This document shows, piece after piece, positions 49,404 through 64,000 of a DNA stretch of 64,000 nt; position 1 is the first letter of the stretch, and every line of letters begins with the position of its first letter. The translations under genes were made by a program, and so were the position numbers. Below the pieces are notes generated by a model, which saw only the letters and a program-made list of their open reading frames with translations, searched no databases and was not told the origin of the DNA. The DNA is from Croceicoccus sp. (GTDB taxonomy: Bacteria > Pseudomonadota > Alphaproteobacteria > Sphingomonadales > Sphingomonadaceae): positions 342,358 to 406,357 of the forward strand of contig NZMY01000050.1 of assembly GCA_002694745.1 (NCBI GenBank), in the 5' to 3' direction.

Positions 49404-49949
49404 TTAAAGGCCGATCTTGCGGACGACGAGGTGGCGGTCGAAATCACCCGCAATCGCGGCGATATGGTCGTAGAAGCCGCGCAGCTTGTCGGTTCCGGCA
49501 TAGAGTTCGGTCATCATGCCGGTCAGCGGCACCGTATCGACGAAGTGGAACGCGAAGCCGTCCTCCATGGTGCCGCGAAAGACGCTAGGATAGCCCGCAT
49601 CCGACCATTCCTGCGCCGCCTTGTCGGCATCGTCGACGAATATGGCGGCGTGATGGGGGCCGAAACGGCCCGAACCTTCGGGATAGATGTCGTGAAAAGC
49701 CGAAGGGCCCGGATTGTTCTGCTGGACGAACTCCACCATCACATCGCCCCACTGGCCATAGGCCGAACTGTGGTCGAGCGTGCCGGGCTTGCCGCGATAT
49801 ATGGCCTCGGCCAGCGGGATGTTTTCCGCGAGAAGATAGGGCCCCGATCCGTGCATGGTATGATGCGACAATGCGGCGGCGTGAGCATCGGGCACGAAGA
49901 ACGCGATCTGCCGGATGGGAAGGGGCGCTGGGGGACGAACTGGGGCCAT
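49404..49949 (-). CDS. VOC (glyoxalase/bleomycin resistance) superfamily protein
   Basis: 181 residues in two betaalphabetabetabeta modules: IRQIAFFVPDAHAAALSHH near the N-terminus, VMVEFVQQNNPGPSAFHD, then FGPHHAAIFVDDADKAAQEW and FHFVDTVPLTGMMTELYAG. His in HHAAIF and Glu in TELYA are plausible metal ligands. VOC members include isomerases, lyases and extradiol dioxygenases, and the reaction is not determinable. It starts in a TGATG junction with the ligase gene, so it belongs to the same operon and presumably the same pathway. Confidence 0.8.
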   Translation of the reverse strand: MAPVRPPAPLPIRQIAFFVPDAHAAALSHHTMHGSGPYLLAENIPLAEAIYRGKPGTLDHSSAYGQWGDVMVEFVQQNNPGPSAFHDIYPEGSGRFGPHHAAIFVDDADKAAQEWSDAGYPSVFRGTMEDGFAFHFVDTVPLTGMMTELYAGTDKLRGFYDHIAAIAGDFDRHLVVRKIGL

Positions 49950-51601
49950 CAGCCCGCCGCCGTCTGGTCACGCTGCGCCAGCAGTTCCTCGCGCAGTTTG
50001 AACTTCTGGATCTTGGACGTCGACATCGGCCATTCGCGCACGAAATGCACGCTGCGCGGCACCTTGAACCCGGCAAGAAATCCGCGGCAATGGTCGATCA
50101 ACTCGTCCTCCTCGCAATTCTTTCCGGCAGCAAGCTCGATGAAGGCGACCGGCACTTCGCTATAGCGCGGGTCGGGAATGCCGACGACCTGCGCGAGCTT
50201 GACGGCGGGATGGGTCTGCAGATGGCTCTCGATCTCGGCGGCGGCCACGTTTTCGCCGCCGACCTTCAGCATGTCCTTGGTGCGGCCGTGGAACATCACA
50301 TTGCCGTCCGCGTCCACGCTGCCGATGTCGCCGGTGTAGAACCAGCCGTCACGGATCGCCTCTGCCGTCTTGTCGGGCGCCTTGTAATAGCCTTTGAGCA
50401 TGTTCGGGCCGCGCAGGACGATCTCGCCCTTCTGGCCCGCGCCGCAATCCTGGCCCGTTTCGGGATCGACGATGCGGATCTCCCATTCCTGCAGCGGTTT
50501 GCCGCATCGTCCCGTGCGGATTTCATAGCTGTCGTCGAGGCGGCTGGTCGATACCGTGCCCGCGCCTTCGGTCAGGCCATAGGTACCGACCTGGATGGTA
50601 TCGGGCATCGCCTTGGCGACGGCCTCCTTGATCCACGCCGGCTGAACCGCGAAGTTCGAATTCATCACCCGCAGGCTGGACAGGTCGGTCTGCTCGAATT
50701 TTTCATGCGTGATCAGGTCCTGCATGATGGTGACAAAGCTGGGATAGGCGATGGTGCCCTTTTCGCGGTCCAGCATGTCGAGCGCGACGCCCGCATCGAA
50801 ATGCGGGACCGTCATATAGGCGCCGCCCCGGTCGAGGATCATCGTCATCGGAAGAATTCCGGCGATGTGATAGATCGGCAGCGGAGACCACACCTTGTCC
50901 TCGCTCGTCACCTCATAACGCGTGCCGAGGTTGCGGCTGTTGGCGACCTGTCCGCGGTGGCTGATGAGCGCGCCCTTCGGATTGGCGGTGGTGCCCGAGG
51001 TGTAGAGGATCATCGCGACATCTTCGTCCTTTATGGCGTCGATGCGTCGGTCGATTTCCTCGTCCGAAATCGCGCGTCCGGCGGCAAGGATCGTGTCGGG
51101 CGAGGTGAGGCCGGATTGGCATGGCGGATCGAGGCAGATGACCTGACGAAGATCGGGCGCATCGGCGAGAGCTAGACTGCCGGAATCCTGCCCCTCTGCC
51201 AGATCGGGGAAGGCCGCCTGCAGCCTTTCGGCGAAATCGACATTTTCGGCCACGCGGCCCGTCGTCACCAGCATCACGAGGTCGGCATCGGCCACCAGAT
51301 AGCGCAATTCGCCCGACTGATAGCGCGCATTGACCGGCACGGCGACGCCGCCCGCCATCATGATGCCGAAAAGAATTTCGAAGAAATCGATGCGTGTGGG
51401 CAGCAATATGCCGACATGCTCGCCCGGCTTGACGCCGGCGGCGACGAACCCCTTCGCCCATGCGCGCGCTGCGCGATAGAGTTCGTCATAGCTGCGCCGG
51501 TCGTCGGGAAAGACCACGGCATCGCTGGGTCCATATGCCTCGGCCGATGCGCGCAGCATCTTGCTCATGGTATAGTTCGGCTGCCCTTGCGCCATAGTCA
51601 T
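49949..51601 (-). CDS. AMP-dependent acyl-CoA synthetase/ligase
   Basis: About 550 residues: an ANL-superfamily enzyme with P-loop motif AMILYTSGTTANPKGALIS, A5 YGLTEGAGT, A7/A8 GWFYTGDIGSVDADG, KDMLKVGGENVAAAEIE and the catalytic C-terminal Lys in TSKIQKFKL. It activates a carboxylic acid to the CoA thioester, the expected entry step of the island. GGAGG precedes ATG 51601. One operator palindrome lies 94 bp upstream, shared with the divergent SDR. Confidence 0.93.
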   Translation of the reverse strand: MTMAQGQPNYTMSKMLRASAEAYGPSDAVVFPDDRRSYDELYRAARAWAKGFVAAGVKPGEHVGILLPTRIDFFEILFGIMMAGGVAVPVNARYQSGELRYLVADADLVMLVTTGRVAENVDFAERLQAAFPDLAEGQDSGSLALADAPDLRQVICLDPPCQSGLTSPDTILAAGRAISDEEIDRRIDAIKDEDVAMILYTSGTTANPKGALISHRGQVANSRNLGTRYEVTSEDKVWSPLPIYHIAGILPMTMILDRGGAYMTVPHFDAGVALDMLDREKGTIAYPSFVTIMQDLITHEKFEQTDLSSLRVMNSNFAVQPAWIKEAVAKAMPDTIQVGTYGLTEGAGTVSTSRLDDSYEIRTGRCGKPLQEWEIRIVDPETGQDCGAGQKGEIVLRGPNMLKGYYKAPDKTAEAIRDGWFYTGDIGSVDADGNVMFHGRTKDMLKVGGENVAAAEIESHLQTHPAVKLAQVVGIPDPRYSEVPVAFIELAAGKNCEEDELIDHCRGFLAGFKVPRSVHFVREWPMSTSKIQKFKLREELLAQRDQTAAG

Positions 51602-51694
51602 CCATCCTCCGTCGGCGCCGAGCGGTTCCGTCCGCATCTGTTGCGCGCATGCCAGAATGATAAGGCCGGGGTACGAGAATGCAAAATAAAAAAC

Positions 51695-51712
51695 AAACTT
51701 TCATGTTTGTTT
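51695..51712. promoter_or_regulatory. TetR operator site A (ligase/SDR divergent promoter)
   Basis: AAACTTTCATGTTTGTTT, centred on CATG, with an overlapping longer symmetry AAACAAAC/GTTTGTTT (51691-51712). It is one of five related palindromes in the island and lies between the divergent ligase and SDR genes. Confidence 0.75.
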
Positions 51713-51796
51713 TGATTCGTGCCATGGTGACGGTGCAAAACAAGGCGTCGGATCCGGTTCGCCGGGTCGCACGGCACTAATATTGTGGAGAGAGAA

Positions 51797-52603
51797 ATGG
51801 CGCATTCGGAAGGGCAGTTCGCCGGGCGGCTGGCGGTCGTCATGGGCGCGGCGGGTGAAGGCAACATGGCGCAGACCATCGCGCGGCGGCTGTCGTCGGA
51901 AGGGGCGACCTGCCTTGTGACCGGGCGGCACCGTGATACGCTGGAAACGCTTGCCAACGACATCGGCGGTCATGCGGCGGTCTGCGACATCACCAGTGAA
52001 AGCGATCTGGCCGCGCTGGGCGATCGCGCGCGCGAACTGGGCGGCGTGGACATTGCCGTCAACGCAACCGGATGGGGCCTGATCAAGGGTTTCCTCGACA
52101 CCACGCGCGAAGAGATCGACCGCATGGTGGCGCTGCAATTCACCGGCGCGTTCCAGTTCTACCAGGCGATGCTGCGCGCGATGAACGACGGCGGATCGCT
52201 GATTCAGGTGACCAGCGCGACGGCCACGATCATGCTGGAGGATCACGCCGCCTATATGGGCACCAAGGCAGGGGCGGATCACGTGCTGCGCTGCGTTGCC
52301 AACGAATTCGGGCACCGCGGCATCCGCGCCAATTCGATCGCGCCGGGATTCACCGCCACCCCGATGACCGAGCGTGCGGCGCGCAACAAGGCGGTCGTCG
52401 ACTGCTTTGCAAAGGCCTATCCGCTGGGGCGCGTGGGGACGAGCGAGGACGTCGCGGCGGGTATCGTCTGGCTGGCATCCGACGAATGTTTCATGACGGG
52501 CGAGACATTGCATGTCAGCGGCGGGCTGCGCCTGCGCCGAAACCCGACCACGGCCGAGATCGTTGCAGCCGCAAAGGCGGCGCGCGAACAGCGTTCGGCG
52601 TGA
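51797..52603 (+). CDS. Short-chain dehydrogenase/reductase
   Basis: 268 residues: a cofactor loop AVVMGAAGEGNMAQTIARRL (a variant of TGxxxGIG), NATG in place of NNAG, catalytic Ser in QVTSATAT and Tyr-X3-Lys in AAYMGTKAGA, so all residues for oxidoreduction are present. It oxidises a hydroxyl or reduces a ketone; the substrate is unknown. ATG 51797 has GGAGAGA upstream and lies 85 bp after operator A. Confidence 0.9.
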   Translation: MAHSEGQFAGRLAVVMGAAGEGNMAQTIARRLSSEGATCLVTGRHRDTLETLANDIGGHAAVCDITSESDLAALGDRARELGGVDIAVNATGWGLIKGFLDTTREEIDRMVALQFTGAFQFYQAMLRAMNDGGSLIQVTSATATIMLEDHAAYMGTKAGADHVLRCVANEFGHRGIRANSIAPGFTATPMTERAARNKAVVDCFAKAYPLGRVGTSEDVAAGIVWLASDECFMTGETLHVSGGLRLRRNPTTAEIVAAAKAAREQRSA

Positions 52604-52609
52604 TATAAA

Positions 52610-52627
52610 AAACATTCCTGCTTGTTT
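52610..52627. promoter_or_regulatory. TetR operator site B (Rieske-thioesterase-MaoC operon)
   Basis: AAACATTCCTGCTTGTTT, 50 bp before the Rieske oxygenase start and immediately after the SDR stop. It shares the flanks AAACA and TTGTTT with the other four sites. Confidence 0.75.
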
Positions 52628-52677
52628 TTTCATCCGGTCGTTGCGATGATCGGGCAAGAGGAAGGAGCGCAAAGGCC

Positions 52678-53898
52678 ATGGAACTCAACCGCGACACGAT
52701 CGCGCAGGTGCAGGAAGTGATGGAATTCGAACGGTCGCGCAAAACGCCGCCCGACGATTTCCCGGCGCTGCCCGATGTTCCCGGATGCCGCTATACCGAT
52801 CCCGCATTCCTCGACCTTGAGGAAGAGCGCATGTGGAAGCGGTCGTGGCGCTATGTCGGACACGCCGATCAGGTGCCCGAAAACGGCAGCTGGTTCCTGA
52901 CGCATGACACCGGATCGCCGATCGTCGTCACGCGCACCATGGATGGCGAGGTCAAGGCGTTCTACAACACCTGCCAGCATCGCGGCGCCCCGCTGGTGAC
53001 CGAGAAATCGGGCCAGTCGCGCGGCTTTGTCTGCGGCTATCACGGGTGGAGCTATACGCTCGACGGGAAGCTGGTGGCGGTGCGCGACAAGCGCGATTTC
53101 GTCGATCTCGACATGTCGTGCCGCTCGCTCGTCGGCGTGCGCTGCGAGATGCTGGGCACGCTGATCTTCCTGAACGAAGATCCCGACGCCCAGCCGCTGA
53201 AGGACCATATCGGCCCGATGGCGAAGGAGCTGGAGCAATACGACCTCGACAATCTGTCGCTGGTCGACAGCAAGCGGTATGATGTCGACTGCAACGTCAA
53301 GGTGCTGCTCGACGCCTTTCTCGAAGTGTATCACATCTCGTCGATCCATCAGGACACGGTGAACCGGTTCCTCGATCATCGCGGCATGATCGTGACGCTC
53401 TGGCCCAATGGCCACAGCCGAATGATGACGCCCAATCGCAGGCCCGACTGGACCGATCCCGGCACGCTGGGCATGCCCAAGATCGAGACGATCACCCCGG
53501 TCCCGGCCGAGAACAATGTCAGCTATCACATCTTTCCGAACCTGGTGATGCCGCCGTCGGACAGCGGCATCCCCGTGCTGCAATTCATCCCGCGCGGGCC
53601 GCGCAAATGCGAAGTCGTGTCGAGCTGGCTGGCCCCCGACCACGACCCTGACGATCCGCACCCCTTGTGGAAGACGCGGATCGATAACTGGACCCGCATC
53701 CTGTACGAGGATCTGCAATATGCGCCGCAGATTCAGGAATCGCTGGAAAGCAGGGGCTTTCGCGGCATGCCGCTGAACTATCAGGAACGCCGCATCTATC
53801 ACTGGCACGAAGAGCTGGACCGGCGCATCGGCCTGAACCAGGTGCCCGAGAGGGCGCGCGTGCAGCAGGTGCTGAAGGATCAGGTCACGGGCGGCTGA
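52678..53898 (+). CDS. Rieske non-heme iron oxygenase, alpha subunit (1)
   Basis: 406 residues. The Rieske [2Fe-2S] ligands are Cys99, His101 (CQHRG) and Cys119, His122 (CGYHGW). The catalytic iron is bound by His219 and His224 in DAFLEVYHISSIH. It is an aromatic-ring- or alicyclic-hydroxylating oxygenase of the single-component-type alpha family. No beta subunit, ferredoxin or reductase is encoded nearby, so the electron donors are elsewhere. Its stop shares a base with the next start (TGATG). Confidence 0.93.
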   Translation: MELNRDTIAQVQEVMEFERSRKTPPDDFPALPDVPGCRYTDPAFLDLEEERMWKRSWRYVGHADQVPENGSWFLTHDTGSPIVVTRTMDGEVKAFYNTCQHRGAPLVTEKSGQSRGFVCGYHGWSYTLDGKLVAVRDKRDFVDLDMSCRSLVGVRCEMLGTLIFLNEDPDAQPLKDHIGPMAKELEQYDLDNLSLVDSKRYDVDCNVKVLLDAFLEVYHISSIHQDTVNRFLDHRGMIVTLWPNGHSRMMTPNRRPDWTDPGTLGMPKIETITPVPAENNVSYHIFPNLVMPPSDSGIPVLQFIPRGPRKCEVVSSWLAPDHDPDDPHPLWKTRIDNWTRILYEDLQYAPQIQESLESRGFRGMPLNYQERRIYHWHEELDRRIGLNQVPERARVQQVLKDQVTGG

Positions 53899-54830
53899 TG
53901 AAGGGCGATATCCCGGCGCGGCAGGCCGCCGAACGGCGGTCCTACACCGGCCCGCCGCGCAGGCTGGAGCGCGAAGGGCTGTTTATGCTGGAGCAGCAGG
54001 GTGACAGCCGCTTCGTCTCGCAGCCCCTGCCAAGCGCGCTGATCCGGCTGTATGGCGGGCAGGTCATGGCGCAGGCGCTTATGGCCGCGCAGCGCACGGT
54101 CGAAGACGGCAAGCGGCCGGCAAATTGCCATGCCATGTTCCAGACGCCGGGCGATATCGCGGTCCCAATCAGTTTCGACATCGAACGCGATTCCGACGGG
54201 CGTAGCTTTTCCGCGCGGCGGATCGTGGCGCGGCAGGGCGATGCGATCATCCTTGCGATGAACGCTATGTTTCATATCGAGGAACCGGATGCGCCTTCGC
54301 ATGGGGCCGCCATGCCGCGTGTGCCCGAGCCCGAGACCTTGACGCCGATGGAAGAGGTGCTCCACGCCTCGACCGAACTGGCAAAGCGGCACGAGCCGTT
54401 CTGGCTGCGCGACCATATCTTCGACTGGCGCCCGGTGCAGACATTTCGCGTAAACACCCGTCCGCCCGAAGCGGGCGAGCAGCAATTCTGGGTCCGGCTG
54501 AAGGAATCGTGGCAGGGGCTGGCGATCGATCATTTTTCGCTGACCGCCTATCTCACCGACCTGCACCTGCTGCATGTCGGGCTTGCCCCGTTGGGCATCG
54601 GGTTCGCGTCGGATCATCTGCAGACGGCCTCGCTCGACCATTCGGTGTGGTTCCACCGCGCCGCCTCGCTCGACGACTGGATGCTCTATTCGCTGACAAG
54701 CCCCTCGGCCGCGCATTCGGTGGCGCTGGGGACCGGGAACCTGTTCACCCGCGATGGACAGATCGTCGCCAGCACGGCGCAATCGGGCCTGATCCGGCTG
54801 CACGACAAGGCGCGTACAGGAAAGCTATGA
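53898..54830 (+). CDS. Acyl-CoA thioesterase II-like (TesB, double hotdog)
   Basis: 310 residues: a first hotdog with LYGGQVMAQALMAAQRTV and SFSARRIVARQGD, and a second with LGIGFASDHLQTASLDHSVW, the TesB pattern whose Asp and Gln/Thr residues form the hydrolytic site. It hydrolyses an acyl-CoA, perhaps to recycle CoA or release a dead-end intermediate. Coupled to the Rieske gene before it (TGATG) and to MaoC after it (ATGA). Confidence 0.9.
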   Translation: MKGDIPARQAAERRSYTGPPRRLEREGLFMLEQQGDSRFVSQPLPSALIRLYGGQVMAQALMAAQRTVEDGKRPANCHAMFQTPGDIAVPISFDIERDSDGRSFSARRIVARQGDAIILAMNAMFHIEEPDAPSHGAAMPRVPEPETLTPMEEVLHASTELAKRHEPFWLRDHIFDWRPVQTFRVNTRPPEAGEQQFWVRLKESWQGLAIDHFSLTAYLTDLHLLHVGLAPLGIGFASDHLQTASLDHSVWFHRAASLDDWMLYSLTSPSAAHSVALGTGNLFTRDGQIVASTAQSGLIRLHDKARTGKL

Positions 54831-55312
54831 CCGGCACCGACCCCAATCGCCCCACGATCTGTTTCGAGGATCTGGAAGTCGGCGATTTCCGCCAGTCGCG
54901 CAGCCGCACGGTCACCCGCGACGAGATCGTCGAGTTCGCGCGGCAGTACGACCCGCAATGGTTCCACTCCGACCCAGAGGCGGCGAAGGATTCGGTCTTC
55001 GGCGAGGTGGTCGCCAGCGGCATCCATGTGCTGGCCATGTGGCGGCAGCTGGATCATGAGATCAACAGCGATATCGATTACGTCTGCGGCATCGGCTGGA
55101 ACGAATTGCGCCTCAACCGCGCGATCAGGGCAGGGGACGTCATTCACGTCACCTCGCGCATAGTGGACCTGATCCCTTCAAAGACGCGCGAAAATCGCGG
55201 GACGGCGCTGACCCGCTATGCCGTTGTGCTGGAAGACGGGACCGAGGCGGTGACATTCACCAGTATCAATCTTGTCTATACGCGTAACGGCCGTCACCGC
55301 GAACGGCGGTAG
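54827..55312 (+). CDS. MaoC-like hydratase/dehydratase (hotdog)
   Basis: 161 residues: ICFEDLEVGDFRQSRSRTVT, then EIVEFARQYDPQWFHSDPEA, the MaoC hydratase motif with Asp and His, and AGDVIHVTSRIVDLIPSKTR. It probably hydrates an enoyl-CoA (R-specific). Overlaps tesB by ATGA and closes the operon begun by the Rieske gene. Confidence 0.9.
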   Translation: MTGTDPNRPTICFEDLEVGDFRQSRSRTVTRDEIVEFARQYDPQWFHSDPEAAKDSVFGEVVASGIHVLAMWRQLDHEINSDIDYVCGIGWNELRLNRAIRAGDVIHVTSRIVDLIPSKTRENRGTALTRYAVVLEDGTEAVTFTSINLVYTRNGRHRERR

Positions 55313-55403
55313 CACTGCCGACCGCCGCTATTTGGATGGAACAGGACCCGAAGGCATCAGTTGGGAAGGTAAGTCAAAGAACTAAGATTTACTGGAGAGT
55401 ACG

Positions 55404-55607
55404 ATGCCAGAAGGCGGATTATTAAGCTCGTTGAGCCTTTTTACACTCATCGGCGTGTTGGTGCTGGCAGGTGTAGCGCTGATCTATTTCATGCGGAAAA
55501 GATCGAACCGGCACCCCATGGATACCCCCGAAGGCAAGCGAGCCGAAGAATTGCGCAGCCGGGAAGCCGAAGAGGAACGTCGCGAGGAAGGCCGGTCCGA
55601 ACTTTAG
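55404..55607 (+). CDS. Small single-span membrane protein
   Basis: 67 residues: one helix (LFTLIGVLVLAGVALIYFM), then a highly charged tail (EGKRAEELRSREAEEERREE). GGAG lies 7-8 nt before the ATG. No family is recognised. It is convergent with the acyl-CoA dehydrogenase gene and 91 nt after maoC; no TetR site precedes it, so it may not belong to the pathway. Confidence 0.6.
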   Translation: MPEGGLLSSLSLFTLIGVLVLAGVALIYFMRKRSNRHPMDTPEGKRAEELRSREAEEERREEGRSEL

Positions 55608-55647
55608 ATCTGGCCACTCGCGCTAGAGTTTGCACCCGACATCCCTG

Positions 55648-56808
55648 TCAACGCCGCTGGTCGAAGCGGCGGCCCAGCATGGCGCTGGCGATGTTCACCT
55701 TCTGGATGTCGATCGCACCGCCCGCGATGCCCCAGCCCCAGCTGTCGCGCAGGCGGCGCTCCATCGGGAAATCCTTGGAATAACCGTACGCACCCATCAG
55801 CTGCATCGCATCGCCGCACACCTCGCGCGCGATGGCGTTGGAAAAGCATTTGCCGGAGGAGGATTCGAGGATCGAGGGCAAGCCGTCCTCCGCGTTCGAG
55901 GCTGCGCGCCAGATCAGCAGGCGGGCGGCTTCGGTCTTCATGTACATCTCGGCCAGTTTCAGCTGCACCGCCTGGAACTCGGCAATGGGTTTGCCGAACT
56001 GGACGCGTTCCTGCACATAGGCTGATACGTCTTCCAGCGCGCCGGATGCCTGCCCCAGCGCCATCGTCGCATTGCCGCAGCGTTCGAGGTCGAAAGCTTC
56101 CATCAGCTTCTTGAAGCCGCCCGCGGGTACGATGATATTGTCCGCCGGAACCTCGCAATCGTCGAAATTGAGGTCGGAGGAGGGGATGCCGCGAAAGCCC
56201 ATCAGCTCTTCATTCGGGCCGAACGACAGGCCGGGCGCGTCCTTTTCGACCAGCACCGCGCCGATGCCCTTGGCGCCCGGATCGTCGGACAGGCGGCAAT
56301 AGACGACATAGGCATCGGCGTGCCCACCGCCCGAGCACCAGCGCTTGGTGCCGTTGATTACCAGCCTGTCGCCCTTCGCCACGCCCTTGGTCTTGAGGTC
56401 GGTGAGCGCGCTGCCTGCGTCGGGTTCGGACATCGAGACGGCAACGATCATCTCGCCGCTGCACACCTTGGGCACGATCCGCTGCTTAAGCGCGTCGGAC
56501 CCGAAATGCTCGATCGCGCGCACCGGGCCTACCGAGGATTCGAAGATCGGGAAGGCGACGGCGGAGGAAATCTTGGCGAATTCCTCCAGCACCACCAGCG
56601 CCTCGATATTGCCGAGTCCGAGGCCGCCCAGATCGCCGCTGACGTTGATGCCAAGGAAGCCCATGTCGGCGTAACGCTTGATCAGCTCGCGCGACGGCGG
56701 CGCGTTGTCGCGTTCCAGCTGCGCGGCGATGGCGGGCAGTTCGGCCCGCGCGAAAGTGCGCGCGGCCTGCTGCAGCTCCTGCTGCTCCTCGGTCAGCCTG
56801 AAATCCAA
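55648..56808 (-). CDS. Acyl-CoA dehydrogenase
   Basis: 386 residues, the usual length, starting LDFRLTEEQQELQQAARTFA. FAD-binding and active-site signatures are VAVSMSEPDAGSALTDLKTK, KRWCSGGGHADAYVV and the C-terminal GAYGYSKDFPMERRLRD. The start is a TTG at 56808 preceded by GAGGGACAGGA; the frame upstream belongs to the Rieske gene in another phase. It introduces a 2,3-double bond into an acyl-CoA thioester; the substrate is unknown. Confidence 0.92.
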   Translation of the reverse strand: MDFRLTEEQQELQQAARTFARAELPAIAAQLERDNAPPSRELIKRYADMGFLGINVSGDLGGLGLGNIEALVVLEEFAKISSAVAFPIFESSVGPVRAIEHFGSDALKQRIVPKVCSGEMIVAVSMSEPDAGSALTDLKTKGVAKGDRLVINGTKRWCSGGGHADAYVVYCRLSDDPGAKGIGAVLVEKDAPGLSFGPNEELMGFRGIPSSDLNFDDCEVPADNIIVPAGGFKKLMEAFDLERCGNATMALGQASGALEDVSAYVQERVQFGKPIAEFQAVQLKLAEMYMKTEAARLLIWRAASNAEDGLPSILESSSGKCFSNAIAREVCGDAMQLMGAYGYSKDFPMERRLRDSWGWGIAGGAIDIQKVNIASAMLGRRFDQRR

Positions 56809-56824
56809 GTTCCTGTCCCTCTTG

Positions 56825-58165
56825 TCAGATGTCGCCGGGCTTTTTGCCGCCCGGTCCGTAGATGTAATCGTCGAGCACCTTGTGGAAGTGCCGGATCCGC
56901 AGCTCCTGATCCCCGATCCACAGGCCGGGGAAGGAGTCGGAATGCATCCCCTTCTGCACGGTCGGCAGGTTGAAGGCATCCTGGTCCAGCACCTGCCCGA
57001 TCGACTTGTCGCCATGCGCGAAGCGGCGGTGCTTCGGGCGTTCGGGCCATTCTTCGCCATCGGGCATAAGTTCCAGCACCCAGATGTCGTAGAGCATCTT
57101 GTTGGGGTCGGTCGCATGGGGCCGCTGGCGGAACATCATCACGTCGTCGGCATGGACGTTGAGCGAGACGTTCGGAAAAATCGTGTAGTGATAATCGTCG
57201 GTCAGCTGGTCGTCGTTGAGGTCGGAATAATCCTTGCCCTGCTCGGGCCCGTGCTCCCGCTTGAAGCGCTGAACGTCGCGGCGGATGTCGCCGACGCGGC
57301 CTTCATATTCGGCTGGGTCCATGCCGGCGGCGCGCATGATGCCGTCGATGGCGGGCGGGATGGCGCTGGGCATCGCGACCCGCGCCGATATGGCGGCGAA
57401 TGGCACCAGATAGCGGCTGTGCTTGTCATAGACGTCGATCTGCGCGCTGGTGTCGTCGAGATACCATTGCAGCTGCGGATGGATGCCCTGAACGTGATAG
57501 ACCTCGCTGAAGGCGTCGACGCTGGCCTTCCAGTTGCAGTCCCACTCCACCGTGACGTCGCGCACCCATGCCATGCGCTCCATGTGATAGGGGTCGAGGT
57601 GCTGCGGGATCATGCCGAGGAAGTCGCTGAGCGGCTCGACATCGCGGTTGAGCGAGAACCACACGAAGCTGCCCCATTCCTCGCAAGGCAGCGGCGGCAG
57701 TGCGGCGCCCTTGGGACAGCCCTGCGGAAACGTGTCCATGTCAGGAATGCGCGTGATCTTGCCCGACCAGTCATAGGTCCAGTGGTGATACATGCACTGG
57801 AAATGCTCGGCATTGCCCAGCCCCTCGGGCCGAAGGCGATTGCCGCGGTGCAGGCAGACATTGGGAAAGGCGCGCACCGATCCGTCGGCCTGCCGCACGA
57901 TGAGGACGGATTCCTTGCCGATCTCGGTGCAGATGTAATCGCCGGGTTCGGGAATGTCGCAGGACCGGCCGCCCAGCAGCCAGACCTTGGTCCAGACATG
58001 CTCCCACTCCAGCTTCATGAAATCCTCGCTGGTGTAGCGAGCGGCTGGAATGATGTCATAGCCGAGATCGGGATCCTCGGCCTTTTCGGCAGGGGTGCCG
58101 TCCGGCCATTCAGCCGGATCGACCCGTTCTATCTTCTGTTCTCGCTTGACGTCCACTTCCCGCAC
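56825..58165 (-). CDS. Rieske non-heme iron oxygenase, alpha subunit (2)
   Basis: 446 residues. Rieske ligands are Cys104, His106 (CLHRG) and Cys124, His127 (CMYHHW), and iron ligands His224 and His229 in DAFSEVYHVQGIH. It is only distantly similar to the oxygenase at 52678-53898, so the pathway includes two oxygenation steps or substrates. The start is GTG at 58165 or, with a better-spaced GGAAAGG, GTG at 58156. Situated between the SDR and the acyl-CoA dehydrogenase in a three-gene operon. Confidence 0.92.
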   Translation of the reverse strand: MREVDVKREQKIERVDPAEWPDGTPAEKAEDPDLGYDIIPAARYTSEDFMKLEWEHVWTKVWLLGGRSCDIPEPGDYICTEIGKESVLIVRQADGSVRAFPNVCLHRGNRLRPEGLGNAEHFQCMYHHWTYDWSGKITRIPDMDTFPQGCPKGAALPPLPCEEWGSFVWFSLNRDVEPLSDFLGMIPQHLDPYHMERMAWVRDVTVEWDCNWKASVDAFSEVYHVQGIHPQLQWYLDDTSAQIDVYDKHSRYLVPFAAISARVAMPSAIPPAIDGIMRAAGMDPAEYEGRVGDIRRDVQRFKREHGPEQGKDYSDLNDDQLTDDYHYTIFPNVSLNVHADDVMMFRQRPHATDPNKMLYDIWVLELMPDGEEWPERPKHRRFAHGDKSIGQVLDQDAFNLPTVQKGMHSDSFPGLWIGDQELRIRHFHKVLDDYIYGPGGKKPGDI

Positions 58166-58171
58166 CTTTCC

Positions 58172-58933
58172 TTAGAATTGCGTGCGGTTGGTATAGGCGC
58201 CGTCGACGACAAGGTTCGACCCGTTGCACCATTCGGCAGCAGGGCTGGCCAGGAACACGATGCAGCGCGCAACTTCCTCGGGCTTGCCCAGGCGGCCCGC
58301 CGGATGCTGGCGCAGCTGTGAATTGTAGAATTTTTCCATCGTGCCCTTGATCATGTCCCAGTTGCCGCCCTCGAACTCGATGGGGCCGGGGGACACGACA
58401 TTGACGCGCACGCCATTGCGGCCATGGTGCAGCGCCAACTGCTTGCCCCAAGTGATGAGCGAGGCCTTCATCGCGTTATAGGCCTGCGGACCGCCCATCG
58501 CCTCGCCTGCGGATGTGGTGGAGATGAGGACGATGGAGCCCGAGCCCTGCTCCTCCATGTGCGGCATCACGACCTCCACCGCGCGGACGGGGCCGAGCAC
58601 GTCGACCTCGAAATTATTGTGCCAGTATTTTTCCGAACCCATGCCGCCGCCGGCCGAGGAGATCGGGATGAGGATGTCGACGCCGTCCAGCTCCTCGATC
58701 GCCCATTCCAGCCATGCTTTGTATTCGTCGGCGGATTTCACGTTGACCGGCTTGCCGACGATGCGGGTGCCATATTTGCCAAGCTCGGCAACCGCGTCCT
58801 TGACGCTGTCTTCGGAACGGGCCGTCAGCGCGATGTCGCAACCTTCGCGGGCAAGGATCTGCGCGACTTCAAAGCCGATTCCGCGTGCGCCGCCGACGAC
58901 GATGGCCTTCTTGCCTTGCAATCCAAGGTCCAA
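58172..58933 (-). CDS. Short-chain dehydrogenase/reductase, first gene of the minus-strand operon
   Basis: 253 residues with the cofactor motif GGARGIGFE, catalytic Ser in LISTTSAGEA and Tyr-X3-Lys in AYNAMKASL, followed by VNVVSPGPIEFEGG. The start TTG at 58933 has AGGAGAG at the right distance and gives the standard SDR N-terminus (LDLGLQGKKAIVVGGA); the frame runs open to 58969 without similarity. Operator C lies 70 bp upstream. Confidence 0.9.
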   Translation of the reverse strand: MDLGLQGKKAIVVGGARGIGFEVAQILAREGCDIALTARSEDSVKDAVAELGKYGTRIVGKPVNVKSADEYKAWLEWAIEELDGVDILIPISSAGGGMGSEKYWHNNFEVDVLGPVRAVEVVMPHMEEQGSGSIVLISTTSAGEAMGGPQAYNAMKASLITWGKQLALHHGRNGVRVNVVSPGPIEFEGGNWDMIKGTMEKFYNSQLRQHPAGRLGKPEEVARCIVFLASPAAEWCNGSNLVVDGAYTNRTQF

Positions 58934-59002
58934 GGGTTCTCTCCTCAATTCAATCCGCTTGTTGCCCAAGGGTTAGAATGCGAGGCGTGGCCACGCAAGG
59001 AA

Positions 59003-59020
59003 AAACATGCATGTATGTTT
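59003..59020. promoter_or_regulatory. TetR operator site C (SDR-Rieske-ACAD operon)
   Basis: AAACATGCATGTATGTTT, with matching outer arms AAACAT/ATGTTT. A further half-site AAACATGCAT lies at 59047-59056. Both are between the minus-strand catabolic operon and tetR. Confidence 0.78.
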
Positions 59021-59089
59021 GTTTATTTCGTTGGCAGTGCAGACGCAAACATGCATAGGGCGGCGTACCACGATTTGCCTATTGACAAT

Positions 59090-59107
59090 AAACAAGCATG
59101 ATTGTTT
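59090..59107. promoter_or_regulatory. TetR operator site D (tetR promoter)
   Basis: AAACAAGCATGATTGTTT, 10 bp before the tetR start. A -35-like TTGACA at 59082-59087 just precedes it, so a bound repressor would cover the promoter. Confidence 0.78.
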
Positions 59108-59117
59108 TCTTTCAGCG

Positions 59118-59756
59118 ATGGCCACGACTATGAACCGAATGGCGGGAACCGCGCGCGCCGATGCAACGCAGACGCAGCAATCGCTGAAAAGCGCGCAAAC
59201 GCGGGCAAGGCTGGTCGACGCCGTCATTCGCTGCATCGTCAAATATGGTTACAACAAGACCACGACGCCTCGCATCGCGGAAGAGGCGGGCCTGTCGCGC
59301 GGCGCGATGCTGCATCATTTCGAGAACGGCACCGCGCTGATCAAGACCACGATCATCGAGCTGCATGAAAAGCGGCTGCGCGCATTTCGCCGCGCGTCGG
59401 ACAGCGGGCACGATCCGACACATCTGGTGCAGGCCTATTGGCGGCAGGTGCAGAAACCCGGCTTCATCGCGTTTCACGAACTGGCGCTGGCAGCGCGGAC
59501 CGATCCCGACCTCGCCAAGATCCTGCATCCGTTGCAGGTCGAATTTCGCGAGCGGTTCCACCAGGAAGCGGTCGAGATGTTTCCCGAATGGCGCGCCGAT
59601 CCCAAGAGTTTCGACCGCGCCATGACCCTGTCACAGGTCGTGATCGAGGGGATGGCCTCGTCGAAGCTGACCGGATCGCTGGACGAGGCGATGATCGAGC
59701 CGATGCTGACGATGCTGGAAGACCAGATCCGGACGATGAAGCCGAAAGGCGGATAG
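59118..59756 (+). CDS. TetR/AcrR-family regulator of the catabolic island
   Basis: 212 residues. The HTH is at about residues 37-70 (CIVKYGYNKTTTPRIAEEAG, LSRGAMLHHFENGTALIK), followed by a ligand domain (AYWRQVQKPGFIAFHELALA). No Shine-Dalgarno precedes ATG 59118, and the promoter may place the transcript start close to this ATG (possibly leaderless); ATG 59130 is an alternative. The matching palindromes at all the island promoters make it the likely repressor, released by a CoA thioester or substrate. Confidence 0.9.
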   Translation: MATTMNRMAGTARADATQTQQSLKSAQTRARLVDAVIRCIVKYGYNKTTTPRIAEEAGLSRGAMLHHFENGTALIKTTIIELHEKRLRAFRRASDSGHDPTHLVQAYWRQVQKPGFIAFHELALAARTDPDLAKILHPLQVEFRERFHQEAVEMFPEWRADPKSFDRAMTLSQVVIEGMASSKLTGSLDEAMIEPMLTMLEDQIRTMKPKGG

Positions 59757-59884
59757 CGCGGCCAAACGCCGCCGCGGCGCGGACCCATGCGGCAAGGTCA
59801 ATCGGCCTGCCCGGTCCCCGCCGGCAGACACAGGAGAGGACGCGAGTTGGCACATCTGCATGAAGCCGGCACCAGGCTGCGGAC

Positions 59885-61123
59885 ATGAGCGGCCGGGGGC
59901 AAGGTCCCTTGGCGGGGGTTAAGGTCATCGATCTGACCAGCGTGCTGATGGGCCCCTATGCGACGCAGATCTTCGCCGATCTGGGCGCCGACGTCATCAA
60001 GGTGGAAAGCGAGCAGGGCGACACGACCCGCGCGCTGCCGCCGGGGCGGGAGCCGGGGCGCGGCGGGATGTTCCTGAACGTCAATCGCGGCAAGCGCAGC
60101 ATCGTGCTGAACCTGAAACAGGCCGAAGCGCGCGAAGCTCTGCTGACATTGTGCCGGGATGCCGACGTATTCGTCCATTCGATGCGTGCCCGCGCGATCG
60201 AGCGGCTGGGCCTGACCTATGACGATGTGCGCGCCGTCAATCCGCGCATCATCTATGCCAGCATGTACGGCTATGGCCGGAACGGACCCTATCGCGACCA
60301 CCCTGCCTATGACGACATCGTGCAGGCCGCATCGGGCGTGGTCGACCTGCAGGCACGGCTCTCGGGCGGTCAGCCGACCTATCTGGCCAATGTGGTGGCC
60401 GACAAGGTCAGCGGGCTGACGGGCACCTATGCCGTCATCGCCGCGCTCTATTCGCGCGAGAAGACGGGCGAGGGGCAGGAGATCGAGATCCCCATGTTCG
60501 AGACAATGGTCTCGTTCTGCTCGGTCGAGCATCTGTGCGGATCGGTGTTTCGCCCACCGCTGGGGCCGCCCGAATATGCGCGAGCGGTTTCCGCCTCGCG
60601 CCGTCCGTACGAGACGGCTGACGGCTATATCGGGGTGATGATCTACAACGACCGGCACTGGCGAAATTTCTTCGACGCCATCGGCAATCCCGAATGGTCG
60701 AAGGACCCGATCTTCGCCACCATGGAAAGCCGGACGCATAATATCACCCGCGTGCTCGACCATGTTGCCGAAACCATGCGTACCCGCGGCACCGACGAAT
60801 GGGTCGCGCTGCTGCGCGAGGCGCAGATCCCCGCGACCGCGATTGCCAGCCTGCAGGACCTTCTGCATGACGAGCATCTCGAGGCCGTGGGATTCTGGCA
60901 GGACCGCGAGACCGATGCGGGGTCGCTGCGCATGCCGGGCATCCCGGTGCACTTTTCGGGCACGCCGGGATCGATCGGCGATCCGGGGCCTGCCCTAGGC
61001 GCGGACGGACGGGAGATCCTTGAGGAAGCGGGCTTCGACGCGGCCGCCATCGAACGGCTGGTTGGCAGTGGCGGCGAGGAAGATCGAACCGCGCAGGCTG
61101 CGCGCAGCGGAGGTGTCCGATGA
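59885..61123 (+). CDS. Class III CoA-transferase (CaiB/BaiF family)
   Basis: 412 residues: AGVKVIDLTSVLMGPYATQI, LGADVIKVESEQGD near the N-terminus and the catalytic Asp143 in AYDDIVQAASG. It moves CoA between two acids. There is no TetR site in the 128 nt upstream, so it may be read through from tetR. It overlaps the DUF35 gene by ATGA. Confidence 0.92.
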   Translation: MSGRGQGPLAGVKVIDLTSVLMGPYATQIFADLGADVIKVESEQGDTTRALPPGREPGRGGMFLNVNRGKRSIVLNLKQAEAREALLTLCRDADVFVHSMRARAIERLGLTYDDVRAVNPRIIYASMYGYGRNGPYRDHPAYDDIVQAASGVVDLQARLSGGQPTYLANVVADKVSGLTGTYAVIAALYSREKTGEGQEIEIPMFETMVSFCSVEHLCGSVFRPPLGPPEYARAVSASRRPYETADGYIGVMIYNDRHWRNFFDAIGNPEWSKDPIFATMESRTHNITRVLDHVAETMRTRGTDEWVALLREAQIPATAIASLQDLLHDEHLEAVGFWQDRETDAGSLRMPGIPVHFSGTPGSIGDPGPALGADGREILEEAGFDAAAIERLVGSGGEEDRTAQAARSGGVR

Positions 61124-61488
61124 CCGGGCCGGAACAGCAGTGGCGCGAGGCGCTGTCCGAAGGACGCCTTGTGTTCCAGCGTTCCCGTGCCAGCGGGACA
61201 GTGTTCTTTCCGCCGCGCATTACCGAACCCGGCACGGGCGATGGTGATTGGGAATGGGTCGAAGCGCCGTCGCCGGCGACGGTCTATTCGGTCACAGTGA
61301 TCCCCTCGCGAGCAGGTCGTGCGACGGCGGTGGCGCTGGTGGATTTCGACGGCGGCGGCCGGATGATGGGCAATGTCGTCGGCATCGATGCCGAAAGCGT
61401 GGCGATCGGCATGCGGGTCGATGTTTTTGTCGACCGGACGGGTGATGCGCCCCGTGTGCAGTTCGACGCAACGAGGGCGGCGCGTTGA
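61120..61488 (+). CDS. DUF35/OB-fold protein lacking the zinc-ribbon cysteines
   Basis: 122 residues. The N-terminal half corresponds to the rubredoxin-like zinc ribbon of DUF35 proteins (LVFQRSRASGTVFFPPR), but every cysteine is replaced. The OB-fold follows (ATVYSVTVIPSRAG, VALVDFDGGGRMMGNVVG, GMRVDVFVD). DUF35 proteins pair with SCP2-type thiolases or Ltp2 aldolases, and the next gene is such a protein. Confidence 0.85.
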   Translation: MTGPEQQWREALSEGRLVFQRSRASGTVFFPPRITEPGTGDGDWEWVEAPSPATVYSVTVIPSRAGRATAVALVDFDGGGRMMGNVVGIDAESVAIGMRVDVFVDRTGDAPRVQFDATRAAR

Positions 61489-62639
61489 CCGCGGGCGCCT
61501 TCCCCCGCGCGCAATGTTCGATTGCAGGCGCCGCGACATGGGGCGTCGGCGAAGCGCCGGGCCACAGTGCCATGGAAATCGCGATGCGGTCCGCAATGGG
61601 CGCGCTCGACGATGCAGGGCTGTCGGTTGGCGATGTCGACGCGGTGTTCGGCTGCTTGCCGGGCGATCTGTTCGCGGGGCTCAGCTTTGCGGAATATCTC
61701 GGGATTTATCCGCGCTTTACCGACAATAACCGCACGGGCGGATCGTCGTTCATCAGCCATCTGATCACCGCCTGCCACGGCATCGCCGCCGGATCGTTCG
61801 AGACGGCGCTGATCGCCTATGGATCGAACCAGCGCACCGGTGGCGGTCGGCTGTCCACTCCGGCAGGCTGGAACGAATGGGACGCCATGTCCGACGGGCT
61901 GTTTCCCGTATCGGGCTATGCGCTAGCGGCGGCGCGTCACATGCACGAATATGGCACTACGCGCACGCATTTGGCCGAGGTCGCGGTCGCGGCACGCAAA
62001 TGGGCGGCCGGCAATCCCGAGGCGTTCGTGCGCGATCCGCTGACCATCGAGGATTGTCTGAACGCGCGTACGATCAGCAGCCCGTTGGGGAAATTTGATT
62101 GCTGCCTCGTCACCGATGGCGGGGCCGCCATCGTCGTGACCTCGACCGAGCGGGCGCGCGACCTTCGTGCGGCGCCCGTGCCGGTTCTGGGCGCGGCGGC
62201 GGCCACCTGGTACAATTCGGTGTCGCAAAGCGGGGATTTGACCACGACGGCCGCGGCTGAATCCGGCCCGCGCGCCTATCGCTGCGCGGGGATCGGGCTC
62301 GCCGATGTCGATGTCGTGCAATTATACGATGCGTTCACGATCAACACGATCCTGTTCCTCGAGGATCTGGGCTTTTGTCCCAAGGGCGAGGGCGGCGCCT
62401 TTGTCGCGGACGGGGCCATTGCGCCCGGCGGACGGCTGGCGGTCAACACCAATGGGGGCGGCCTCTCCTTCGGGCATCCGGGCATGTACGGCCTGTTTAC
62501 CCTGATCGAAGGCGTTCGGCAGATCCGGGGCGAGGCCGCCAATCCGCTGGCCGATGTCGATATCGCGCTGGCCCATGCCAATGGCGGCACGCTGTCGAGC
62601 CAGGCGACGGCGATTCTAGGATCGCTGGCGACGATCTAG
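61485..62639 (+). CDS. SCP2/Ltp2-type thiolase-like protein
   Basis: 384 residues with a thiolase fold: VFGCLPGDLFAGLSFAEYLG, the His motif NGGGLSFGHPGMYGLF and the C-terminal LAHANGGTLSSQATAI. At the position of the thiolase nucleophilic cysteine (about residues 82-90) it has RTGGSSFIS, with no Cys, and in the C-terminal motif Cys is also absent. It may therefore be a retro-aldolase like Ltp2, working with the DUF35 partner. TTG start overlapping the preceding stop (TTGA). Confidence 0.85.
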   Translation: MTAGAFPRAQCSIAGAATWGVGEAPGHSAMEIAMRSAMGALDDAGLSVGDVDAVFGCLPGDLFAGLSFAEYLGIYPRFTDNNRTGGSSFISHLITACHGIAAGSFETALIAYGSNQRTGGGRLSTPAGWNEWDAMSDGLFPVSGYALAAARHMHEYGTTRTHLAEVAVAARKWAAGNPEAFVRDPLTIEDCLNARTISSPLGKFDCCLVTDGGAAIVVTSTERARDLRAAPVPVLGAAAATWYNSVSQSGDLTTTAAAESGPRAYRCAGIGLADVDVVQLYDAFTINTILFLEDLGFCPKGEGGAFVADGAIAPGGRLAVNTNGGGLSFGHPGMYGLFTLIEGVRQIRGEAANPLADVDIALAHANGGTLSSQATAILGSLATI

Positions 62640-62648
62640 CCAAGAAAA

Positions 62649-62666
62649 ATACATTCCTGCTTGTTT
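62649..62666. promoter_or_regulatory. TetR operator site E (SDR-enoyl-CoA hydratase operon)
   Basis: ATACATTCCTGCTTGTTT, nearly identical to site B, 97 bp before the SDR start and just after the thiolase-like gene. Confidence 0.72.
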
Positions 62667-62762: not shown

Positions 62763-63668
62763 ATGAACGAACCTCGGATAATCCGGCCCGATCCCAACGA
62801 TCCCACTCGGCCCAAGCGCGGGCTGCACGAGGACGATCTCGCCAGTTTGCCAACCGTCTTTCGCAGCGATCTGCTGGCCGATCACGTCATACTGATTTCC
62901 GGTGGCGGCAGCGGCATGGGCAAGGCGATGGCGTTCCTCGCCGCAAGGCTGGGCGCAACGGTGATCATCTGCGGCCGGACCGAGGAAAAGCTGGAACGCA
63001 CGCGCGATGCCATTGCGGAAAAAGTCGGTCGCGAGATCCATTTCTACCCGACCAACATCCGCGACCCCGATGCGGTGGAGGCGATGATCGCCGATGCATC
63101 CGACCGGTTCGGCGGGATCGACACGCTGGTCAATAATGCGGGCGGCCAGTTCCCGCAGGATGCCATCGATTTCAGCCGCAAGGGCTGGAACGCGGTGATC
63201 GACACCAATCTCAACGGCACGTGGTGGATGATGCAGGAGGCCGCGCAGCGCTGGCGCAAGGACGGGCGCAAGGGCCATGTCATCAATATCGTCGCCAATG
63301 TCGAACGCGGCATGCCGCAGGCGGCGCACACCTGCGCGGCGCGTGCGGGGGTGATCTATCTGTCCAAGACCGTCGCGACCGAATGGGCACCGCACGGCAT
63401 ACGCGTCAATTGCATTGGCCCCGGCGTGATCGAGACCGAGGGTTTCGCCGTCTATCCCGAGGAAGCGCTGCAGCGTTTCCACAAGGCCAACCCCATGAAA
63501 AAGCGTGGCAATGCGTGGGACGTGGCCGAGCAGGTGATGTATCTGGCATCCCCTGCCGCCGATTTCATAAACGGCGATCTGATCATCATCGATGGCGGAC
63601 AGGCGCAATGGGGGGTCGTCTGGCCCGGCGGCATGCCCGACTATTTCGACGAGGGCGGGGCGGCCTGA
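62763..63668 (+). CDS. SDR resembling 2,4-dienoyl-CoA reductase
   Basis: 301 residues: cofactor motif SGGGSGMGKA, NNAGG, and in place of the usual Tyr-X3-Lys the sequence AAHTCAARAGVIYLSK, then TEWAPHGIRVNCIGPGVIET. This arrangement is that of DECR-type dienoyl-CoA reductases, which lack the catalytic Tyr. The AGAAGGGA site precedes ATG 62763. Reduction of a dienoyl-CoA would fit the CoA pathway. Confidence 0.85.
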   Translation: MNEPRIIRPDPNDPTRPKRGLHEDDLASLPTVFRSDLLADHVILISGGGSGMGKAMAFLAARLGATVIICGRTEEKLERTRDAIAEKVGREIHFYPTNIRDPDAVEAMIADASDRFGGIDTLVNNAGGQFPQDAIDFSRKGWNAVIDTNLNGTWWMMQEAAQRWRKDGRKGHVINIVANVERGMPQAAHTCAARAGVIYLSKTVATEWAPHGIRVNCIGPGVIETEGFAVYPEEALQRFHKANPMKKRGNAWDVAEQVMYLASPAADFINGDLIIIDGGQAQWGVVWPGGMPDYFDEGGAA

Positions 63669-63672
63669 TACC

Positions 63673-64000
63673 ATGGCAGGCCTGGTCGAGGAGCGTCGCG
63701 GAGCCATCTGCATCCTGACGATCGACCGCCCTTCGCGCGCCAATGCGCTGGACGCCGCGACCTCCGCCGCTTTGGACGAGGCAATCACCCGTGCCGAAGC
63801 CGATGAGGCCATTGGCGCGGTTCTGCTCTGCGGCGCGGGCGACAGGGCGTTCTGTTCGGGCATGGACATGAAGGAAGCGGCGCAGGCGGGCGTCGGGCAG
63901 GGCCTGATCCCCGGCCGCGGGTTCGGCGGCATTACCGAGCGGCAGCGCAGCAAGCCCCTGATAGCGGTGGTGAACGGCGCGGCGGTGGCTGGCGGGTTCG
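63673..64000 (+). CDS. Enoyl-CoA hydratase/isomerase (cut by the window end)
   Basis: The first 109 codons show a crotonase fold: AICILTIDRPSRANALDAAT, the oxyanion-hole segment DRAFCSGMDMKEAAQAG and KPLIAVVNGAAVAGGF. The gene starts 4 nt after the SDR stop and continues beyond the window. The active-site glutamates cannot be assessed. Confidence 0.88.
   Translation, partial: MAGLVEERRGAICILTIDRPSRANALDAATSAALDEAITRAEADEAIGAVLLCGAGDRAFCSGMDMKEAAQAGVGQGLIPGRGFGGITERQRSKPLIAVVNGAAVAGGF

Follow-up and report, generated by a model that had tools for sequence, protein, structure and literature searches.

The closest described operators belong to SmeT and TtgR. SmeT, from Stenotrophomonas maltophilia, represses by blocking RNA polymerase, and its 30-bp operator oligonucleotide contains AAACAAGCATGTATGTAT (accessible sections of PMC3128119). 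The operator of TtgR from Pseudomonas putida contains AAACAACCATGAATGTAA (accessible sections of PMC4538802). Here we report on a 64,000-nucleotide stretch of Croceicoccus sp. DNA (assembly GCA_002694745.1, contig NZMY01000050.1; C15:342358-406357 of a 4.02-Mb genome), referred to as the window, which carries a catabolic gene island and, at 59118-59756, a gene for a TetR-family regulator. The initial annotation had proposed that this TetR governs the island through five palindromes. This proposal is upheld by the co-occurrence of motif and TetR in 18 genomes, by sites before the same genes in relatives and by a site at the tetR promoter. The 18-bp palindrome AAACAnnCATGnnTGTTT is very probably the operator of this TetR, which would control the island as a ligand-released repressor; sites occur at tetR itself and at seven other places. 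Judged from sequence, this is probably an autoregulated TetR-controlled catabolic regulon, ordinary in kind.

Palindromes and regulator gene in the window

The five palindromes were confirmed at the window positions listed below. Scores are those of a symmetrised position weight matrix (PWM) built from the five sites, and are followed by the score of the counterpart in Croceicoccus marinus. SDR denotes a short-chain dehydrogenase/reductase and ACAD an acyl-CoA dehydrogenase.

51695..51712, operator 1, between the ligase gene (minus strand) and SDR1 (plus strand), with an overlapping register at 51691; PWM 27.9, C. marinus 25.4
52610..52627, operator 2, before Rieske1-TesB-MaoC; PWM 28.9, C. 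marinus 25.9
59003..59020, operator 3, before SDR2-Rieske2-ACAD (minus strand); PWM 30.3, C. marinus 21.5
59090..59107, operator 4, before tetR, starting 2 bp past TTGACA (59082-59087); PWM 31.3, C. marinus 27.1
62649..62666, operator 5, before SDR3-ECH-SDR4; PWM 25.9, C. marinus 22.4
59047..59056, plus strand, half-site, AAACATGCAT
59118..59756, plus strand, TetR-family regulator, start codon at 59118 or 59139; TetR_N above the Pfam cut-off, homologue loci found

With at most one mismatch, the pattern AAACA-N8-TGTTT gave six matches in the window, all at these five places, as compared to a mean of 0.29 and a maximum of 2 in 100 shuffled sequences. The matches were exact at 51691, 52610, 59003 and 59090, and contained one mismatch at 51695 and 62649. 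Searches allowing two mismatches were less clean: 11 matches versus 4.69 expected, a count reached by one of the 100 shuffles. On the PWM, the five sites scored 25.9 to 31.3; the next-ranking positions, at 19.9 and below, were these sites read in a shifted register. The best unrelated position, 42888, scored 9.2, so that within the window the motif occurs only on the island, as the initial annotation had suggested; the best score in any of 30 simulated windows was 17.7. The palindromes are genuine, well in excess of what chance would produce.

Some details of the initial annotation required adjustment. The outer arms AAACA and TGTTT are shared approximately, one arm reading ATACA at 62649 and AAACT at 51695. 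The additional half-site at 59047 exists as sequence; C. marinus has not retained its AAACA arm, and the half-site is probably not functional. In the ligase/SDR1 spacer, where 51691 and 51695 are overlapping registers, 51695 is the better of the two because only it contains the CATG core. Operators 2 and 5 differ at a single one of their 18 letters and are flanked by similar A-rich and T-rich sequence; a copy event is possible.

The product of 59118-59756 is a member of the TetR family as judged from its helix-turn-helix and its predicted fold. Specifically, the TetR_N domain (PF00440) scored 40.8 bits versus a cut-off of 24, and the predicted structure consists entirely of helices (pLDDT 88.1). 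The 50 best PDB structure matches shown are all TetR-type regulators by description, with TM scores of 0.44 to 0.66 by query length. The C-terminal model TetR_C_31 was below its cut-off in the Pfam scan. The closest PDB sequence is that of TtgR (residues 24-138, E 3e-11).

Motif and regulator in related bacteria

The distribution of the palindrome was evaluated in 249 genomes of the family. The exact palindrome AAACANNCATGNNTGTTT occurred in 19 of these, and its reversed control in none. Similarly, 19 genomes encode a close TetR homologue (best E < 1e-50, at least 54% identity), a criterion chosen after the best E per genome had been seen, based on the drop from 9e-68 (G103) to 7e-29 (G038); the TetR candidates scored numbered only 12 in many genomes. 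Motif and homologue occur together in 18 genomes (Fisher p about 3e-25, which is overstated since the genomes are related). In these 18, all 34 exact sites share a contig with the tetR homologue at a distance of no more than 15.7 kb, and 16 of the 34 lie within 300 bp of it. Comparative genomics thus provides a strong, sequence-based link between the palindromes and this TetR.

The position of the operator was next evaluated in 47 tetR homologue loci. These include near-identical species, and some are also among the 249 genomes; the loci and the genomes are therefore not independent samples. At least one strong site (PWM of at least 20) was present in 41 loci, and in 28 a site of this strength lay within 320 bp upstream of tetR. 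By comparison, 300 permuted matrices, all retained, averaged 0.4 loci; their maximum of 25 of 47 (PWM 20) came from a near-restored motif. Of 100 strong sites, 94 lay upstream of an island homologue at a distance of 350 bp or less, versus 18.4 for random placement, and none lay inside such a gene. For this count, homologue matches with less than 50% coverage, or with less than 40% identity unless TonB, were dropped, as were 33 of 200 permuted matrices (correlation >0.5); the remaining matrices averaged 0.2 sites, with a maximum of 17. With divergent sites counted for two genes, the neighbours were TetR (41), SDR2 (19), ABM1 (15), TonB (15), Rieske3 (13), Rieske1 (12), SDR3 (8), SDR4 (5), VOC (4), ligase (4), SDR1 (2) and CaiB (2). 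Although the genes of the island are arranged differently from genome to genome, their operators have remained next to them. In four Novosphingobium loci (L043, L044, L048 and L055), a second TetR homologue precedes SDR3 and has the same operator code.

A largely syntenic island is present on plasmid pCME4A9I of C. marinus, and its TetR shares 92.5% identity with that of the window. All eight operators of the Croceicoccus sp. island have a counterpart there: seven score at least 21.5, and that of the operator at window coordinate 72387, past the window end, scores 16.6. Five of six spacers align between the two islands, at 53-61% identity, and the operators are among their best-kept stretches. 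The tetR promoter block is also kept, TTGACA with the operator right behind it, which bears out the earlier claim that one palindrome lies at this promoter. A tree built from 39 TetR rows places the window protein together with a Croceicoccus metagenome-assembled genome, and the proteins of C. ponticola, C. sediminis and C. gelatinilyticus together with those of Novosphingobium. This grouping and the plasmid location in C. marinus suggest that the island moved horizontally.

Operators beyond the window and alternative explanations

Genome-wide candidates were collected using the pattern with at most two mismatches, and PWM scores were computed on the fetched stretches only. The pattern alone is unspecific, yielding 26 forward and 27 reverse matches as compared to 14 and 9 for the reversed control. 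The following strong sites were obtained:

C15:409171 (window coordinate 66814), operator between Rieske3 and the VOC protein gene; PWM 25.7
C15:414624 (window coordinate 72267), operator between the TonB receptor gene and two ABM genes; PWM 25.7
C15:414744 (window coordinate 72387), operator between the TonB receptor gene and two ABM genes; PWM 25.2
C5:50123, site ending 46 bp before the gene of a fourth Rieske oxygenase, on another contig; PWM 20.5
C35:186273 (L072:6274-6291), site between a TonB receptor gene and an unrelated TetR gene, with a PQQ dehydrogenase gene adjacent; PWM 24.9

On contig C15 the island thus spans 23 kb, with eight strong operators and about 21 genes, and runs past the window end. 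The multi-operon island described earlier stands, whereas its size of about 15 genes was an underestimate that lacked the last three operators. Likewise, the operators are clustered on the island, as the term 'local' regulon implied, but not strictly so, given C5:50123. The sites at C15:432566 (PWM 20.1, near tsf) and C14:1820 (18.2) are probably due to chance and were not counted.

The Rieske gene on C5 is probably a detached member of the regulon because its five close homologues in the 18 TetR genomes searched (67-79% identity) are all on the tetR contig, about 13-49 kb from tetR. The 1.5 kb before these five homologues speak against such membership: a strong site was found 0.6 kb upstream in one (L089), a weak one 0.7 kb upstream in another (L088) and none in three.

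Several observations weigh against control of the island by its own TetR. In 19 of the 47 loci, no strong site lies directly upstream of tetR (in several of these, tetR is elsewhere in the island and sites stand before other genes), and six of the 47 have none in the fetched stretch. Genome G011 has the motif between convergent genes, with no TetR found among the 12 of 47 candidates scored and with the 20 kb fetched free of island homologues; this site is probably due to chance. In G173, TetR is at a contig end and the site upstream of it is weak (14.0). A promoter-like TTTGCA-17-TATCAT for the ligase adjoins operator 1; overall, the sigma-70 scan was at chance level, with no excess of promoter-like sites. 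Finally, the strong site at C35:186273 stands beside a TetR gene unrelated to that of the island, and may be the operator of that neighbour. Its palindrome is nearly identical to those of the island; cross-talk or a convergent operator is possible.

The C35 site also favours an explanation in which the palindromes are operators of a different regulator, such as another TetR encoded elsewhere, and the island tetR is merely one target. The same can be said of a paralogue with 34% identity in this genome (C35:80487) and of several Novosphingobium loci that have two TetR homologues inside the island or close to it. We nevertheless consider a different regulator improbable: the motif tracks the island TetR across the 249 genomes, distant paralogues (30-43% identity) occur in 14 further genomes that lack the exact motif, and Pfam scans of island genes revealed no other DNA-binding regulator among those scanned. 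Slightly less probable still is that TetR acts as an activator, or with a sign depending on operator position. The distances from operator to gene start vary in the divergent spacers, and the promoter scan did not fix promoter positions, both of which leave room for activation. At tetR, however, TTGACA and the operator right behind it are both conserved, in the layout of a steric repressor, and SmeT acts as a repressor on nearly the same operator (PMC3128119, accessible sections). The chance that the palindromes are a dispersed repeat or AT-rich sequence without a regulatory role is minimal. Copying could explain the near-identity of operators 2 and 5, but it does not account for the promoter positions of the sites in relatives, for their absence from the interior of island genes, or for their retention in C. 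marinus where the flanks have diverged. Moreover, a Markov model predicts 0.4 sites of PWM at least 20 per 4 Mb. Based on the co-occurrence of motif and TetR, a repeat or chance origin is ruled out in practice.

In the favoured model of a ligand-released repressor, the ligand-free TetR dimer would bind operators located at or close to promoters, keeping its own gene and about 20 catabolic and uptake genes repressed. A ligand, probably a pathway intermediate, would release TetR and turn the island on. The pathway is probably switched on and off as a unit, because the same TetR-operator pairing recurs in related bacteria. We infer binding by this TetR, repression, the ligand and the operon boundaries from sequence.

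Island genes and comparison with known systems

The genes of the island within the window are as follows:

49949..51637, minus strand, acyl-CoA ligase (Pfam AMP-binding)
51797..52603, plus strand, SDR1 (Pfam)
52678..53898, plus strand, Rieske1 oxygenase alpha subunit (Pfam; PDB relatives)
53898..54830, plus strand, TesB-type acyl-CoA thioesterase (Pfam; tesB model below cut-off)
54827..55312, plus strand, MaoC-type hydratase (Pfam)
55648..56808, minus strand, ACAD (Pfam)
56825..58156, minus strand, Rieske2 oxygenase alpha subunit (Pfam; PDB relatives)
58172..58933, minus strand, SDR2 (Pfam)
59885..61123, plus strand, CoA-transferase family III, CaiB-like, 128 bp behind tetR (Pfam)
61120..61488, plus strand, OB-fold protein of the ChsH2 C-terminal type (Pfam)
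61485..62639, plus strand, thiolase-like protein, relative of Ltp2-type aldolase (Pfam; PDB relatives 4u4e, 6ok1)
62763..63668, plus strand, SDR3 (Pfam)
63673..64000, plus strand, start of an enoyl-CoA hydratase-like gene (ECH) that ends at 64443, past the window (gene call; syntenic C. marinus gene annotated as enoyl-CoA hydratase-related)

Past the window end are Rieske3, a VOC protein gene, a TonB receptor gene with a PQQ dehydrogenase gene behind it and two ABM genes. The CoA-transferase, OB-fold and thiolase-like genes directly behind tetR should be added to the regulon. Rieske3 is split into two reading frames (L068:1345-2710, window coordinates 65345-66710) and is one 450-codon gene in C. 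marinus, indicating a frameshift or an assembly error. The MaoC-ACAD junction contains an open reading frame of 67 amino acids without a Pfam match (55404-55607), at which place C. marinus has P450, IS5 transposase and other genes. The island is followed by a DUF418 gene and by an RND efflux operon encoding HlyD, AcrB and OEP (L068:9338-16250, window coordinates 73338-80253), neither of which was seen in the fetched homologue loci. The pump is not supported as a regulon member: its genes lie at 74725-80253, the nearest strong site, 72387, precedes the ABM genes, and the pump proteins had no homologue matches in the fetched homologue loci (E 1e-25).

The island probably encodes a pathway that breaks down an organic acid. 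Gene content suggests import by the TonB receptor, CoA activation by the ligase and CoA-transferase, hydroxylation by several Rieske alpha-subunit oxygenases and beta-oxidation-type steps by ACAD, MaoC, ECH and the SDRs. Cleavage is suggested to be by the Ltp2-related protein with its ChsH2-like OB-fold partner. This thiolase-like protein has GGSSF in the alignment region where thiolases carry their nucleophilic cysteine, which suggests that it would be an aldolase. A steroid or bile-acid island was considered in view of the Rieske, Ltp2-like and ChsH2-like components and the sphingomonad bile-salt literature, and is not supported by the relatives of the Rieske proteins. In PDB and NCBIfam, these proteins are most closely related to carnitine/glycine-betaine monooxygenases and to the alpha subunits of aromatic dioxygenases; none of the Rieske proteins reached an NCBIfam equivalog cut-off.

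More tentatively, the SmeT/TtgR-like operator code could be the shared control language of a modular sphingomonad island. Per-operon operators might keep modules in the regulon when these are reshuffled, duplicated or, as with the fourth Rieske gene on C5, moved to another replicon, and the two TetR paralogues of Novosphingobium might read one code. The substrate might then be a polycyclic acid, degraded by an undescribed route using three to four Rieske monooxygenases and the Ltp2-like aldolase.

A putative regulon and operator are now available for a widespread, apparently uncharacterised catabolic island. The operator predicts members beyond the gene neighbourhood, namely the TonB receptor, the PQQ dehydrogenase, the ABM pair and the Rieske gene on the other contig. 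In addition, the tetR promoter could serve as a simple reporter in screens for the inducer and, through it, for the substrate. No description of this TetR or its operator in sphingomonads was found among the literature matches listed, a search mostly outside subscription journals; the regulon is, provisionally, apparently undescribed.

Among TetR regulators with large catabolic regulons and many operators, KstR and KstR2 of mycobacteria are comparable but belong to another phylum (PMC3068626). The bsd I bile-salt cluster of Caenibius tardaugens is from a related bacterium, and is likewise a catabolic cluster with a local TetR and proposed palindromes; these, ATAGGGCCATTG and GCATGCGGGATGC, are unlike the window motif (PMC12882949, accessible sections).

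The efflux regulators are closer in operator sequence. The SmeT operator matches the window motif at 13 of 14 fixed positions (PWM 27.4), and SmeT is also an autoregulated TetR-family repressor at divergent genes, smeDEF/smeT (PMC3128119, accessible sections). It governs an efflux pump, whereas the predicted targets of the island TetR are catabolic and uptake genes, and its sequence resembles that of the island TetR only weakly, over the helix-turn-helix region (E 2.5e-6). The TtgR operator matches at 12 of 14 positions (PWM 18.8; PMC4538802, accessible sections). TtgR is also an efflux regulator; its ligand domain is unlike that of the island TetR, whose predicted fold matches TtgR at a TM score of only 0.44. 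The operator of PmeR scores 8.1 with the window matrix. Membership of the island TetR in the TtgR/SmeT/AcrR efflux-repressor group was rejected: the operators are alike, but neither family model nor fold places the protein there, its score with AcrR model NF007949 being 33.1 bits versus a cut-off of 271. The window sites have the form of the efflux group, AAACAnnCATG with a near-palindromic second arm. The putative operator is not a new code but the known efflux-repressor layout, though its TetR fails the AcrR model and is predicted to act on catabolic genes.

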